In this document: one piece after another, positions 5,433 to 61,772 of the stretch
How the letters are laid out: each line of letters opens with the position of its first letter
Position numbering within the stretch: position 1 is the first letter of the stretch
Assembly (NCBI GenBank): GCA_021776825.1
Contig: JAJFFG010000133.1
Location: 1-64,000 of the forward strand
Direction: 5' to 3'
Length of the DNA stretch: 64,000 nucleotides
From: Planctomycetota bacterium
Lineage (GTDB): Bacteria; Planctomycetota; JAJSAM01; JAJVHW01
The notes under the pieces: generated by a model
Databases searched by the model: none
What the model was told of the DNA's origin: nothing
The model's input: only the letters and a program-made list of their open reading frames with translations
Made by a program: the position numbers and the translations under genes

Positions 5433-7543
5433 GCATGCGCCGCGCCGCACCGATCGCGATCGCGGCCGTGCTGTCCGTCGTCATCGTGGTCGCGATTGCA
5501 GCCGGATGCAGCGACGACGAGCCGCCGCCCGTCACGCCCCTGCGAGACATCTCGTCGAGCGGGAACCGCTACCCGACGACGACACCTCACCAGAGTGGCG
5601 TGGCCGTCGGCGAGTCGCTGCTGACGGCCGACATCAGCGAGGGCTGCGGCGACTGCCACGCTGATGTCGTCGAGAGCTACCGCGAGAACGGCATGCACGA
5701 CGCGCTCATGCTCCCGAGCGGTCGCGGAAGCATCGAGTACGAGCTGATCGGCCAGGAGGTCGTCGATCCCGACACTGGCATCACGGGGCGGTTCGACATC
5801 GGCGCCGGTGGTTACGAACAACAGCTGCTGTTCCGCGACCCCGACGGAACGGTGCGCGCGTCGTGGAGCATGCCGATCGACCTGATCATCGGCAGCGGCA
5901 CATCGGGACGTGGCTACCTCGCGGCGAGGGATGGCGACCTGTACGTGCATCCGCTCGCTTGGTACCGCGAGCTCGACGGCCTGGCGTTGTCGCCCGGTCC
6001 CGGCTTCGCGACTCATGCGACGCGCACGGCGACGCACCTGTGCGTGGGCTGCCACACCGGCGTGGCGCGTCCGCGCGACACGCGCATCGACGTTGGGTTC
6101 GCGGGAGACATCTCCCTCGGGATCGCCTGCTCGCGCTGTCACGGCGACGGCGAGACCCACACTTTGGACGGCGACCCGCGCAGCATCGTCAACCCGTCAC
6201 GCCTGGCGGTCGAGCGGCAGAGCGAACTCTGCTACCAGTGTCACTTCTCCGGCGGCACTCAGCTGCTGAAGCCAGGCAAGGCGATGGCGGACTACGTGCC
6301 CGGCACGCCGCTTGGTCTCGTGCAGTCGGTGTTCGTCGCCAAGGAGCCGAAGCGCGACAGCGGGGCGCGCGTCGCGAGTCACGTCGCCCGCATGCTCCGG
6401 TCGCGCTGCTTCACGCAGAGCGACGGCATGACGTGCACGACGTGCCACAACCCGCACCGCAAGGTCGGCACCTCCGGAGACGCGAGCGGTTGCGCAGTCT
6501 GTCACCAGACGGACGATTGCGGCGAAGCGCATGGAGCGCGGGGCGACCGCACCTGTGTGGACTGCCATATGGCGAACGTGCCGTCGTCGGATATCCGCCA
6601 CACGACGACGACGGATCACTGGATTCGCAAGCGACCGGAGCTCGCGGCGGCGCTGCAGGTCTCGCCCGAAGAGGCATCGATCGGCGCTCTGGCGATCGCC
6701 GACGAGGACATCGTCGACGTGCTCGATCCGGAGGGGGCTTTACCCGACGCCACGCTGATGCGGGTGGACGCGTACCTGCGCGGAGTTGACGTCGCTGCCG
6801 AAGTGTTCAATCGGGACGCGCCGGCGTATCTGCAGCGCGCCCGGACTCTCCTCAACGAGCTCCAGTCAGAGGACCCGAGCAACGTCGAGGTGCTGTGGCG
6901 CCAGGCCCGGGTGCGGCGCTTCGGTCACGACAACCCGTCAGCGCTCCGGTACGCGACCGCCGCGGCAGAGCGCGATCCGTCACACCCGCGCGTCTTGTTG
7001 GAGATGGCACTCGCATCGTTCGGCATGTACTCCGCCGGAGACCTCGGGAAGGCGCTACCAGCGGTGGCCCGCGCACGGCGCGCGATGCCGGACGACCTCA
7101 CGCTCGCGCACGCCGAAGCCATGATCCTCGAGCACAAAAAGCGACCGCGCGAGGCCGTCGCGGTGCTCGAGCAGATCCGAGACCGTCGCGGCCCGCGGAG
7201 TGACCTCGCAGAGTTCGGCGTCCTGATGGCGGAACGCTCCGGCATCAACGACGTCGCGCTGACGTTCGCGCTCGACGCGCTCCTGTTCGCGCCCCGCGAT
7301 CCAGACCTGCTTGCACGGGCCTCGCGCCTCTCGCTGGCCGAGAATTGGAATCCGAAGACCGTGACGCACCTCGCCAACATGGCGCTCGAACAGGACGCGA
7401 ACCACCTCGGGGCGCTCCTCGCACTGGCCAATGCCTACTTGAACACCGGCGACGACGAGAACGCCCGTCAGACCGCACGGCGCGCCGCCGATGCGCACCC
7501 GCGACACCCTGCTGTCGAGGCGCTGCTCCGGCGACTCCGCTGA
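5429..7543 (+). CDS. Multiheme cytochrome c lipoprotein with C-terminal TPR region
   Basis: Seven CxxCH motifs (CGDCH, CVGCH, CSRCH, CYQCH, CTTCH, CAVCH, CVDCH); lipobox AIAAGCSDD; ATGA overlap with upstream permease. Confidence 0.9.
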   Translation: MSMRRAAPIAIAAVLSVVIVVAIAAGCSDDEPPPVTPLRDISSSGNRYPTTTPHQSGVAVGESLLTADISEGCGDCHADVVESYRENGMHDALMLPSGRGSIEYELIGQEVVDPDTGITGRFDIGAGGYEQQLLFRDPDGTVRASWSMPIDLIIGSGTSGRGYLAARDGDLYVHPLAWYRELDGLALSPGPGFATHATRTATHLCVGCHTGVARPRDTRIDVGFAGDISLGIACSRCHGDGETHTLDGDPRSIVNPSRLAVERQSELCYQCHFSGGTQLLKPGKAMADYVPGTPLGLVQSVFVAKEPKRDSGARVASHVARMLRSRCFTQSDGMTCTTCHNPHRKVGTSGDASGCAVCHQTDDCGEAHGARGDRTCVDCHMANVPSSDIRHTTTTDHWIRKRPELAAALQVSPEEASIGALAIADEDIVDVLDPEGALPDATLMRVDAYLRGVDVAAEVFNRDAPAYLQRARTLLNELQSEDPSNVEVLWRQARVRRFGHDNPSALRYATAAAERDPSHPRVLLEMALASFGMYSAGDLGKALPAVARARRAMPDDLTLAHAEAMILEHKKRPREAVAVLEQIRDRRGPRSDLAEFGVLMAERSGINDVALTFALDALLFAPRDPDLLARASRLSLAENWNPKTVTHLANMALEQDANHLGALLALANAYLNTGDDENARQTARRAADAHPRHPAVEALLRRLR

Positions 7544-14784: not shown

Positions 14785-14910
14785 CCCTGATCTGCATTGG
14801 CGCCCTGATCGGCATTGGCACCCTGATCGGCATTGGCACCCAGATCCGCATTGGCACCCTGATCCGCATTCGCACCCAGATCCGCATTGGCACCCAGATC
14901 AACTCAGGCA
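14785..14910. repeat. 18-bp tandem repeat array (consensus cc(c)tgatccgcattggca), about 6-7 units
   Basis: Units start at 14785, 14803, 14821, 14839, 14857, 14875, 14893 with exact 18-bp period; last unit degenerate. Confidence 0.95.
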
Positions 14911-14936
14911 CCGTAGTCTGGAGGGGAGGAGGCCGA

Positions 14937-57302: not shown

Positions 57303-58070
57303 TCACTGGGGCCGCCCCTCCCGCGGGGGCCGCAGCAACGCCTCGACACCCTCCGGCGAACGACAGGGGATGACGTGCGTCCAGCGGCCCGGGCGGCGGC
57401 GGTCCCGGATCACCTCGGCCTCGATCACATAGTGAGCCGAGGGCTGATCCACACGCCGCCGCCGGGCCACCGCGCGGAGTGAAACGAGGGCACCGAGCGA
57501 GGGGGCCTCGTCGGGTTTGGCGGTGAGACAGACGGCCGCGGCCTCGTGCTCGCGACAGAGCGCCGCCAGCCGATTGAGCAGCGCTGGCGCCATGCGTGCC
57601 CGTGCTCCGTCGTCGACGAGATCGAGTACCACGAGTCCGAAGGCCCCCGACCGAACGAGCCGCTCGGCGAGCCGCGGCACGTCGCGCGGACCTCCTGCCC
57701 GCACGACCGCCAACGCCCCGAGATCCACTCCGGCGCGCTCAGCATCGGGTGGGAAGAGCGTCGCGCCGCCCGGCGTGACCCACGCGGTGGTCTCGCCCAT
57801 CTGCTGCGCATCCCGCACGAGCGCCACGGCGAGCGAGAGCCCCGCTGACGCCCCCGCGGCCGACGAGATCTCGGCCAACCGTCCCGCGAGTTCGGCCTGC
57901 CCTAACCGAACAGAGCCGCCGCTCGGCCCACGCCCGATGCCATCCCGCCCGATGCCATCCCGCCCGATGCCATGCGCCCCCCGGACGACGCCCGGGATAC
58001 CCCCCGGCTTCCCACCTGGCTTCCCACCTGGAATCCCACCTGGGCGGCGGGGCTCCCTCTCGTGGGGCAT
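57303..58070 (-). CDS. imuA: ImuA-like RecA-fold protein with repeat-rich N-terminus
   Basis: QAELAGRLAEISSAAGASAGLSLAVALVRDAQQMGETTAWVTPGGATLFPPDAERAGVDLGALAVVRA; immediately downstream of lexA and opposite imuB. Confidence 0.75.
   Translation of the reverse strand: MPHEREPRRPGGIPGGKPGGKPGGIPGVVRGAHGIGRDGIGRDGIGRGPSGGSVRLGQAELAGRLAEISSAAGASAGLSLAVALVRDAQQMGETTAWVTPGGATLFPPDAERAGVDLGALAVVRAGGPRDVPRLAERLVRSGAFGLVVLDLVDDGARARMAPALLNRLAALCREHEAAAVCLTAKPDEAPSLGALVSLRAVARRRRVDQPSAHYVIEAEVIRDRRRPGRWTHVIPCRSPEGVEALLRPPREGRPQ
57931..58043. repeat. Intragenic minisatellites in imuA 5' end: 15-bp cgcccgatgccatcc x3 and 12-bp cttcccacctgg x3
   Basis: Units at 57931, 57946, 57961 and 58008, 58020, 58032. 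Confidence 0.92.
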
Positions 58071-58071
58071 C

Positions 58072-58833
58072 TCAGTTCCCGGGCGATGCGTCGAGGGTGC
58101 GCCGCACCTCGACGACGCGACCGAGCAGCCGCAGATCGGCGGGATCGGGGGTGATCGTCGCGAAGTCGGGGTTCGCCGGAACGAGGGCCACTCCGCGCTG
58201 ACCGGATCCATACTGCCCCGATCCGGGCTGTCCTGATCCGGGCTGTCCTGATCCGTGCGGCCCCGATCCGTCTTGATCCGATCCGTCTTGATCCGGGCTG
58301 TCTTGCCCTGAGCCGCGTCGCTCCGGGCCGGTGAAGCGCAGGGTCTTGACCGTGGCCTCGTCGCCCACGAACGCCACGACCACATCGCCCGAGCGGGGGG
58401 TGACGTCGCGGCGCACGATCACGACATCGCCCTCGAGGATGCCCGCATCGCGCATGCTGTCGCCCGAGACACGCAGCGCGAGGAGTTCGCCCGGCGCGCC
58501 CGCCGACGCCCCCGCGACGGCCACATAGCCGTCCGGCTCCTCGATGGCGGCCGTCAGACCACCCGCCTGGACCCGGCCGAGCAGCGGCACGAGCGCAGGC
58601 GCCCCCCCGCCCGGCGCATCGAACGGGAGTCGATAGCCCCGCGCCTTGCCGGAGTCCTTCTCGAGCCTCCCGTCCGCGACGAGTCGCTCGAGATGCACCC
58701 GCGCCGACTCGACGGCCTTGAGCCCCACGGCCCGCTGCACCTCCCGCACGGTCGGGGGCCGCCCCGCCAGGAGCCGCTCCCGCACGAAGAGGTAGATCCG
58801 CTCGCGTGTCGCACCGCGCGCACCAGGACTCAT
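58072..58833 (-). CDS. lexA: LexA-type SOS repressor with Gly/Ser/Gln/Asp-rich insertion in the S24 peptidase domain
   Basis: wHTH TRERIYLFVRERLLAGRPPTVREVQRAVGLKAVESARVHLERLVADGRL; cleavage-like LLGRVQAGG; catalytic RVSGDSMRDAGILEGDVVIV and EATVKTLRF. Confidence 0.9.
   Translation of the reverse strand: MSPGARGATRERIYLFVRERLLAGRPPTVREVQRAVGLKAVESARVHLERLVADGRLEKDSGKARGYRLPFDAPGGGAPALVPLLGRVQAGGLTAAIEEPDGYVAVAGASAGAPGELLALRVSGDSMRDAGILEGDVVIVRRDVTPRSGDVVVAFVGDEATVKTLRFTGPERRGSGQDSPDQDGSDQDGSGPHGSGQPGSGQPGSGQYGSGQRGVALVPANPDFATITPDPADLRLLGRVVEVRRTLDASPGN
58201..58305. repeat. 15-bp tandem repeats within lexA (7 degenerate units encoding GSGQP/DQDGS-type pentapeptides)
   Basis: Unit starts 58201, 58216, 58231, 58246, 58261, 58276, 58291. 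Confidence 0.9.
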
Positions 58834-58866
58834 CGCCGCATCCTCCGAGACCGCACCAGAAAACCG

Positions 58867-58926
58867 GACATTCGTCCGTATGTCAACGAGCATCGCTGCT
58901 GGGGTCATGCTATACAGACGTATGTC
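58867..58926. promoter_or_regulatory. Candidate SOS operator region between divergent lexA and imuB
   Basis: GACAT-TCGTCCGT-ATGTC dyad at 58867-58884; CGTATGTC repeated directly at 58877-58884 and 58919-58926 (42 bp apart). Confidence 0.4.
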
Positions 58927-58955
58927 CGCAAGTTGCGGGCGGAGGCGCGCGACAG

Positions 58956-60551
58956 ATGGCCGGGACAAACAGGACGACGAGGGCAGCACGATCGGGAACG
59001 ACACCCCCCAGACCGAGACGGACAGCAGCCGACGCCGGCCGCGTGGCCTGCGTGGATCTGCCGGCGTTCCCGCTGCAGCTCCTTCATCGACGCGATCCCG
59101 ATGCCCGGACGGGACCGGCGGCGATCGTCGACCGGGACCATCCCCAGGGGAAGATCCTGTGGGCCAACCCGGCTGCGCGGGATCGGCGGGTGCTGCCGGG
59201 CCAGCGGTATTCAGCGGCGCTCTCGCTCTGCCCGGGGCTGCGGGCCGCCGAGGTGCCGATCGAGGAGATCGCGGCGGGGGTCGCCGCCATCACCGAGCTC
59301 CTGCGGCGCTTCTCTCCCGAGGTCGAGCCGGCGCGCGAGGAGCCGGGCGTGTTCTGGCTCGACGCGGGCGGACTGGTGCATCTCCACCCCTCGCTGCTCG
59401 AGTGGGGCGAGCGCCTCCAACGCGCGCTCGTGGCCGACGGCTTCACGGCATCGGTGATCGTCGGTTGCTCACGCTTCGGTGCCTACGCGCTGGCGCGGGC
59501 AGCGGGGGAAGGCGCGTGGCTGCTCGGCACTCTCGACGAGGAACGGGCCGCGACGCGGCGGGTGCCGCTCGCCCGACTCGGCATCGAGCCGCGCTTTCGG
59601 GATGCCCTGTCGCGGCTGGGCGTGCACACGATCGGCGAGTTGGCCGAGCTGCCCGAGGGCGGGCTCTCCCAGCGCTTCGGCAAGGAGGCGGAGCGTCTCC
59701 ATCGGCTGGCCACCGGATCGCTCAGCGAACCGCTTACCCCGGCCCTGCCCGTCGAGCCCCCGGTGCGGCGCGTGGCGTTCGAGATGCCGGAGACCGACCT
59801 CCGGCGTCTGCTCTACGCCCTCGAGCAGGAGGTGCCGGGACTCCTTGCCGAGATCGCCGAGCGCCGCCAGGCGCTGGCCGGACTGGCGCTGCGGATGGAG
59901 CTCGACGGCGCCTCGCCACGACGGATCGAGGTCCGGCCTGCCACGCCCACGCTCGTCGGCGGTCAGATCCTCGAGCTGCTCCGGCTGCAGCTCCAGAACG
60001 GGTCGTGGCTGCGCGCCGGGATCACGGCCGCGGTGCTCACCGCCCGGGGTGTCCCGGCCCGGGCCGAGCAGTTGCGGCTCTTTCGCGAGAACCCCCGCCG
60101 GGACCTGCGCGCCGCCGCGCGGGCACTGGCCCGGGTGCGCGCCGAGATCGGGCCGTACGGCGTCGTCGCCGCGCGGCTGACCGAGGGACACCTGCCCGAG
60201 GCCACGTTCACCTGGGAGCCGCTCGACACGATCCGCTTCCCCGAACGAAGCGTCCGCCGTGACGATCGCCCCGCCGCCCTCGTCCGCCGCGTGTTCGCGC
60301 GCCCCACGCCGTTGCCGCCCCGACCGCGCCACGAGCCCGACGGCTGGCTGCTCTCGGGCCTCGCGTGCGGACCGGTCCGGCAGTACGTCGGTCCGTACAT
60401 CGTCTCCGGCGGCTGGTGGGCGCGCCCCCCCGGCGATCGCGACGCCATTCACCGTGAGTACCACTTCGCCGAGACCGCTCGCGGCGACCTGCTGTGGGTC
60501 TTCCACGACCGTCGGCGCCGCCGCTGGTTCCTGCAGGGAGCCGTCGAGTGA
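58956..60551 (+). CDS. imuB: ImuB-like Y-family polymerase-related protein
   Basis: RVACVDLPAFPLQLLHRRDPD; RYSAALSLCPGLRAAEVP; LSRLGVHTIGELAELPEGGLSQRFGKEAERLHRLATG; C-term WARPPGDRDAIHREYHFAETARGDLLWVFHDRRRRRWFLQGAVE. Confidence 0.88.
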   Translation: MAGTNRTTRAARSGTTPPRPRRTAADAGRVACVDLPAFPLQLLHRRDPDARTGPAAIVDRDHPQGKILWANPAARDRRVLPGQRYSAALSLCPGLRAAEVPIEEIAAGVAAITELLRRFSPEVEPAREEPGVFWLDAGGLVHLHPSLLEWGERLQRALVADGFTASVIVGCSRFGAYALARAAGEGAWLLGTLDEERAATRRVPLARLGIEPRFRDALSRLGVHTIGELAELPEGGLSQRFGKEAERLHRLATGSLSEPLTPALPVEPPVRRVAFEMPETDLRRLLYALEQEVPGLLAEIAERRQALAGLALRMELDGASPRRIEVRPATPTLVGGQILELLRLQLQNGSWLRAGITAAVLTARGVPARAEQLRLFRENPRRDLRAAARALARVRAEIGPYGVVAARLTEGHLPEATFTWEPLDTIRFPERSVRRDDRPAALVRRVFARPTPLPPRPRHEPDGWLLSGLACGPVRQYVGPYIVSGGWWARPPGDRDAIHREYHFAETARGDLLWVFHDRRRRRWFLQGAVE

Positions 60552-60698
60552 CGTGTCGTAGGAACGACCCGGAGAGCGGCCCAGAAGGCGCCCCGGAAAG
60601 CGTCGCGGAAAGCGCAGCAATGCGCTCGCGGGATCTCCTCGCGCGCAGCGAGTACAGTCGCGACGGTGCCGCGCCTCGGCGGTGTCGAACGGAGGCCC

Positions 60699-61772
60699 AT
60701 GAAGCGCGCGCGCAAGCTCGGTCTCGGCCTGCTCGTGGCCGTTCTCGCACTGTCTGCCGTCGAGGGCTGCAGCAACCTCGGCGTGACGCTCTACGACGCC
60801 CTGTTCGAGAGCGACTCCCCCATCGCCGAACGACTGCACACCGAGTACGACGCGGAGCTCGGCTGGACGAACGTGCCCGGCAAGCGCGTCGAGGATCTCT
60901 ACGGATCGGGGCGCACGGTCACGATCAACGCGCAGGGCTTCCGCGGTGTCGACCCGACCCCGCAGGCACGGACGAACGACCGGCCCCGGGTCCTCTGCTC
61001 GGGCGACTCGTTCACGTTCGGATACGGCGTGGGCGATGCCGAGGCGTGGCCGGCGCAGCTCGACGCGCTGCGGCCGAAGATCGACATCGCCAACCTCGCC
61101 CTCGGTGGCTACGGCGCCGACCAGGCCTACCTCCACTACCTGCGGGCCGGGATCGATCTCGAACACGACCTGCACCTGTTCGCGATCATCGCCGACGACA
61201 TCAACCGCATGACCTACGACGCGTTCTCGGGCTACGGCAAGCCGTGGCTCGTGCGCGTCGACGGGCAGTTGCAGACGCGCAACGTCCCGGTGCCCGAGGC
61301 GGGCTTCGGCGCGCCGTGGTTCGTGCAGAACGGGCGACTCCTGCGACGGCTCGGCGTCGTCGAGCTCGGACACCGGATGGGCGGTGGCGAGGACGCCCAG
61401 GTGCTGCGTCGTGTGACGCCGGTCGAAGAGGCCGTCAACCTGACGCGCACGGCGCTCGTGGACATGACGGCGCGCACGGCCGACCGCGCGCTCCCCCAGG
61501 CGATCGTCTTCCTGCCCACGCTGGCCGACGTCAACCCGAACAGCACCGACTTCCTCCGCGAGCCGCTCCTCGCCGCGCTGCGCCGCGACGGTCTGCCGGT
61601 GATCGATCTCGTCGCGGCCTTCCGTGCCGAACCGCCGACCGACTTGACAACGTTCTTCCTGCAGCCCGGCGAGGTCAGTTTCCCCGGCGCCCAGGGCCAC
61701 TACACGGCCCTCGGCAACCGGTGGGTGGCAGAGCGCCTCGCACCCGTCGTCGATCACCTGCTCGCCGACTGA
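60699..61772 (+). CDS. SGNH/GDSL-hydrolase-like lipoprotein
   Basis: Lipobox-like LSAVEGCSN; VLCSGDSFTFGYGVGDAEAWPAQLDAL; NLALGGYGADQAYLHYLRAG. Confidence 0.82.
   Translation: MKRARKLGLGLLVAVLALSAVEGCSNLGVTLYDALFESDSPIAERLHTEYDAELGWTNVPGKRVEDLYGSGRTVTINAQGFRGVDPTPQARTNDRPRVLCSGDSFTFGYGVGDAEAWPAQLDALRPKIDIANLALGGYGADQAYLHYLRAGIDLEHDLHLFAIIADDINRMTYDAFSGYGKPWLVRVDGQLQTRNVPVPEAGFGAPWFVQNGRLLRRLGVVELGHRMGGGEDAQVLRRVTPVEEAVNLTRTALVDMTARTADRALPQAIVFLPTLADVNPNSTDFLREPLLAALRRDGLPVIDLVAAFRAEPPTDLTTFFLQPGEVSFPGAQGHYTALGNRWVAERLAPVVDHLLAD

Follow-up and report, generated by a model that had tools for sequence, protein, structure and literature searches.

The 64,000-nucleotide stretch of planctomycete DNA analysed here (positions 1 to 64,000 of contig JAJFFG010000133.1, hereafter the window) carries on its minus strand, at 58072–58833, a gene for a 253-residue LexA-type repressor/autoprotease, which we designate lexA2 on account of its gene neighbourhood. 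The full-length profile TIGR00498 gives the product 119.7 bits against a curated cut-off of 110.95, and both constituent domains, the LexA DNA-binding domain PF01726 (35.5 bits) and the S24 peptidase PF00717 (77.7 bits), score above their cut-offs; in addition, the protein resembles solved LexA structures, by sequence in the PDB and by predicted fold in Foldseek. The cleavage pair A90-G91, S126 (in the GDSM motif) and K163 are all present and invariant across an alignment of 44 sequences. These profile and residue data bear out the initial annotation, which had read the gene as a LexA keeping its autoprotease residues.

Directly downstream of lexA2, on the same strand, lies an imuA-like gene (57303–58070, 255 aa), whose product matches the ImuA model NF033429 below the model cut-off (E=1.9e-7) and the RecA-like profile PF00154 weakly, and whose assignment is backed by synteny, as its homologues adjoin lexA2 in relatives. 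Transcribed divergently from lexA2 is an imuB-like gene on the plus strand (58956–60551, with the ATG at 58956 as probable start), whose product matches the IMS profile PF00817 with 49.8 bits and shares 40–63% identity with ImuB-like homologues adjoining lexA2-imuA in most relatives scanned; the lexA2-imuA-imuB arrangement was found repeatedly in relatives. The genome encodes two DnaE proteins, one of which, a putative DnaE2, is located on the window's contig just past the window (C39:64462). Between imuB and dnaE2, at 60666–61772 on the plus strand, we also observed a gene for a lipoprotein-like protein with a GDSFTFGYG motif.

It is this position within an imuA/imuB/dnaE2 cassette that identifies the window LexA as LexA2. 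A second LexA of normal length (198 aa, TIGR00498 188 bits) is encoded elsewhere in the same genome (G000, C78:87084-87632) and the window copy is part of a mutagenesis cassette, so the earlier proposal that the window LexA is the SOS repressor is not supported as it stands. The situation is akin to that described in Pseudomonas putida, where lexA2, imuA, imuB and imuC (dnaE2) form a mutagenesis cassette (PMC3901139): in both cases a second LexA is encoded next to imuA and imuB, a second DnaE lies on the contig and operator-like sites occur at the cassette. In contrast to the P. putida cassette, imuB of the window is divergent from lexA2-imuA, dnaE2 follows at a distance of about 4 kb, and the LexA2 hairpin is lengthened by 15-bp repeats.

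We derived a dyad operator matrix from sequences upstream of lexA2 genes outside the family of the window species; when it was applied to 475 kb of the genome, its three highest scores all fell within the lexA2/imuB gap. Among these predicted sites, the operator-like dyad ACAGACGTATGTCCGC at 58914–58929 scores best (16.4 bits) and CCGGACATTCGTCCGT at 58864–58879 third best (12.5 bits); over 100 column permutations of the matrix, scores in the same gap averaged −0.4 with a maximum of 18.1, which exceeds the real 16.4. Consistent with such sites, LexA2 would repress its own lexA2-imuA unit as well as the divergent imuB, and repression would be relieved by RecA-stimulated self-cleavage of LexA2 between Ala90 and Gly91 by means of Ser126 and Lys163.

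Within lexA2, seven 15-bp units are arrayed at 58305–58201 (minus strand, residues 177–211), all in phase and encoding QDSPD QDGSD QDGSG PHGSG QPGSG QPGSG QYGSG, in agreement with the initial description of seven such units. In the output of Tandem Repeats Finder, the array is represented by overlapping entries of period 15, 30 and 45. When the register is shifted by two codons, neighbouring units share 10, 15, 9, 12, 14 and 10 identical bases of 15; as unit pairs thus range from 9 of 15 to identical, some copies look recent and others degenerate. In the LexA2 model, the insert falls between the predicted strands 159–168, which bears the catalytic lysine, and 214–218, and its placement in the short turn of the hairpin that follows the catalytic-lysine strand, as first proposed, is supported. 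Structure prediction, suggested at that stage as a check, returned a confident core, most blocks of which have a pLDDT close to 90 or higher, and an insert without secondary structure at a pLDDT of about 52–56.

We found no description of repeats in the LexA hairpin in our searches of the literature, and likewise no account listing the residues at the RecA–LexA interface. Extra segments relative to E. coli LexA are a feature shared with Mycobacterium tuberculosis LexA, which has an N-terminal extension and an 18-residue insertion in the hinge (PMC8607333); in LexA2 of the window, unlike in that protein, the extra segment consists of tandem repeats and sits in the hairpin following the catalytic lysine.

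We then compared hairpin length, defined as the number of residues from K163 to the next conserved leucine (L217), among LexA homologues. The hairpin comprises 10 residues in 106 of the 134 homologues, a set in which a few rows represent one gene fetched twice, and 53 residues (about five-fold) in the window LexA2. In four relatives of the same family, the hairpins measure 15, 15, 24 and 33 residues, indicating that the length is variable within this family and that the window species is its extreme. In these relatives, the loop differs in sequence from that of the window and is not repeat-like. Duplications were also seen at other places in LexA2 orthologues, namely a 15-bp duplication in another loop (DGRSLDGRSLDG) ahead of the SGDIVVA strand in the orthologue L006 (genome G004), and a GPPLKGPPLK duplication in the hinge of the orthologue L011 (genome G021).

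The window hairpin is by far the longest among the 134 homologues and the insert cuts the S24 profile match short at residue 169, both of which would fit a LexA2 disabled by its insert, that is, a protein unable to cleave itself or to dimerize, acting as a constitutive repressor or encoded by a decaying gene. Against such a loss of function stand the intact reading frame, the retained catalytic residues and the intact modelled core. Moreover, in the region past the insert, which is still aligned, differences between lexA2 and its two closest orthologues are distributed over the first, second and third codon positions as 8/10/21 and 10/10/19, and the third-position bias is found on either side of the insert. 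This predominance of third-position differences argues that the protein has been constrained on both sides, even if a very recent loss of function would still show this pattern. Overall, the LexA2 protein looks otherwise intact apart from the insert, and we regard its inactivation as very unlikely.

The repeat count itself might stem from an error of metagenome assembly or from a mixture of strains, given that the genome is in 133 contigs and looks metagenome-derived, and that the assembly of tandem repeats is known to be error-prone (PMC6868369). At 105 bp, the array is short, its units are distinguishable and the frame is intact, while longer hairpins are independently present in other assemblies, which together make an artefact of this kind highly improbable.

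To what extent, then, is the array particular to lexA2? Tandem Repeats Finder detected 55 arrays in 464 kb of the genome, compared to 3 in an order-3 Markov simulation (11.9 versus 0.6 per 100 kb), indicating that short tandem arrays in this genome are not due to chance. For arrays with periods of at least 9 bp, the period was a multiple of three in 38 of 54 cases (p=3e-8). Short arrays were also present in 7 of 8 comparison genomes of the phylum, and the only low-GC genome sampled had none in 20 kb. These features recall the short, in-frame, scattered repeats with periods mostly multiples of three that have been reported genome-wide elsewhere, including in the planctomycete Rhodopirellula baltica (about 4 in-frame short tandem repeats per Mb by the criteria of the published survey, which differ from those applied here); what sets the lexA2 array apart is its location within a regulator's autoprotease domain.

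Arrays are likewise found in the adjacent imuA, whose N-terminal region bears a 15-bp array encoding GIGRD repeats (57931–57973, minus strand, 2.9 copies, 100%) and a 12-bp array encoding GGKP/GGIP (58006–58043, minus strand, 3.2 copies, 92%); the ImuA proteins of relatives carry arrays unlike those in the window. In one of them (L162, genome G002), long 27/54-bp arrays with SSPLADAARGAPS repeats occur around 7141–7288 and are far larger than those of the window. By array content, the lexA2-imuA stretch belongs to the top 0.35% of genome segments of equal size and is thus array-rich even for this genome, so that the site may not be random. As a general rule, an array hotspot at lexA2-imuA was rejected: the stretch is dense in arrays only in G000 and G004, the density is not significant in G002, G034 and G051, and arrays are absent there in G001 and G003.

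A core similar to that of the 15-bp unit recurs at several loci elsewhere in the genome, in various frames and on either strand with respect to the genes, which points to a process acting at the DNA level. The unit pattern was found at 51 places genome-wide, versus 14 for a control read backwards, and the exact unit family in the 464-kb sample exceeded most, not all, shuffled-unit controls. Shared ancestry or spreading of the units across the genome is thus suggestive only, and common Asp/Ser/Gly codon use may account for part of the excess. Elsewhere in the window, at 14785–14912, an 18-bp array of CCCTGATCCGCATTGGCA (about 6.4 copies) is located a short distance upstream of an ATG (14937); its unit is similar to that of lexA2 with 3 bp added. 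In addition, the 21-mer ATCTCCTGATCCGCCCTGCCC, perhaps a dispersed repeat element, occurs at six places in the genome (C6:23438, C51:67479, C59:24467, C60:227, C99:22896 and C106:21583).

These distributions bear on the possibility that the array acts as a tunable linker, the gain or loss of 15-bp units altering the rate of LexA2 self-cleavage or its contact with RecA or a dimer partner, and thereby creating heritable variation in when the cassette is switched on. Two adjacent units are identical, which fits a recent change in copy number; the insert begins a few residues past the catalytic-lysine strand; the hairpin is longer in all members of the same family; and the target genes form a mutagenesis cassette. 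However, similar arrays throughout the genome and in ImuA mean that no LexA-specific cause is needed, none of the results points specifically to LexA tuning as the origin of the repeat, and the relatives' loop differs in sequence and lacks repeat character, so that we consider such a linker unlikely. A stricter form, in which the number of units sets the self-cleavage rate as a length-variable rheostat and the trigger threshold of the cassette itself mutates fast, appears quite doubtful.

Taken together, these results favour, with a probability of roughly 0.7, a working LexA2 with a permissive, disordered loop that has been lengthened by a genome-wide habit of tandem duplication. The hairpin turn after the catalytic-lysine strand would represent a permissive surface site that is lengthened in the family of the window species. 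In the window species itself, a 15-bp unit would have been duplicated in tandem, so that the hairpin exceeds its usual length by about 40 residues, yielding a hydrophilic, presumably disordered loop of Gly, Ser, Asp and Gln that is probably near-neutral. The array would then be one case of in-frame duplication acting genome-wide and persisting where the protein tolerates it. We favour this permissive loop over a LexA-specific device because arrays are common across the genome, occur also in ImuA and in other LexA2 loops of relatives, and include units with a similar core in other frames and strands. Arguing against a neutral loop, most of the lengthening affects a single hairpin in a single family, which could also reflect selection.

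Overall, the LexA hairpin following the catalytic lysine appears able to bear about 40 extra residues in a gene still under constraint, a tolerance that identifies this position as permissive in an autoprotease that has been studied extensively. Were the number of repeats to change cleavage, a fast-mutating repeat would be tied to how a mutagenesis cassette is controlled. Since repeats are common genome-wide and LexA2 looks otherwise intact, the protein is better seen as a curious variant than as a new mechanism, and the lexA2 array mainly as one instance in which the short tandem repeats found across the genome have come to lie in a regulator.
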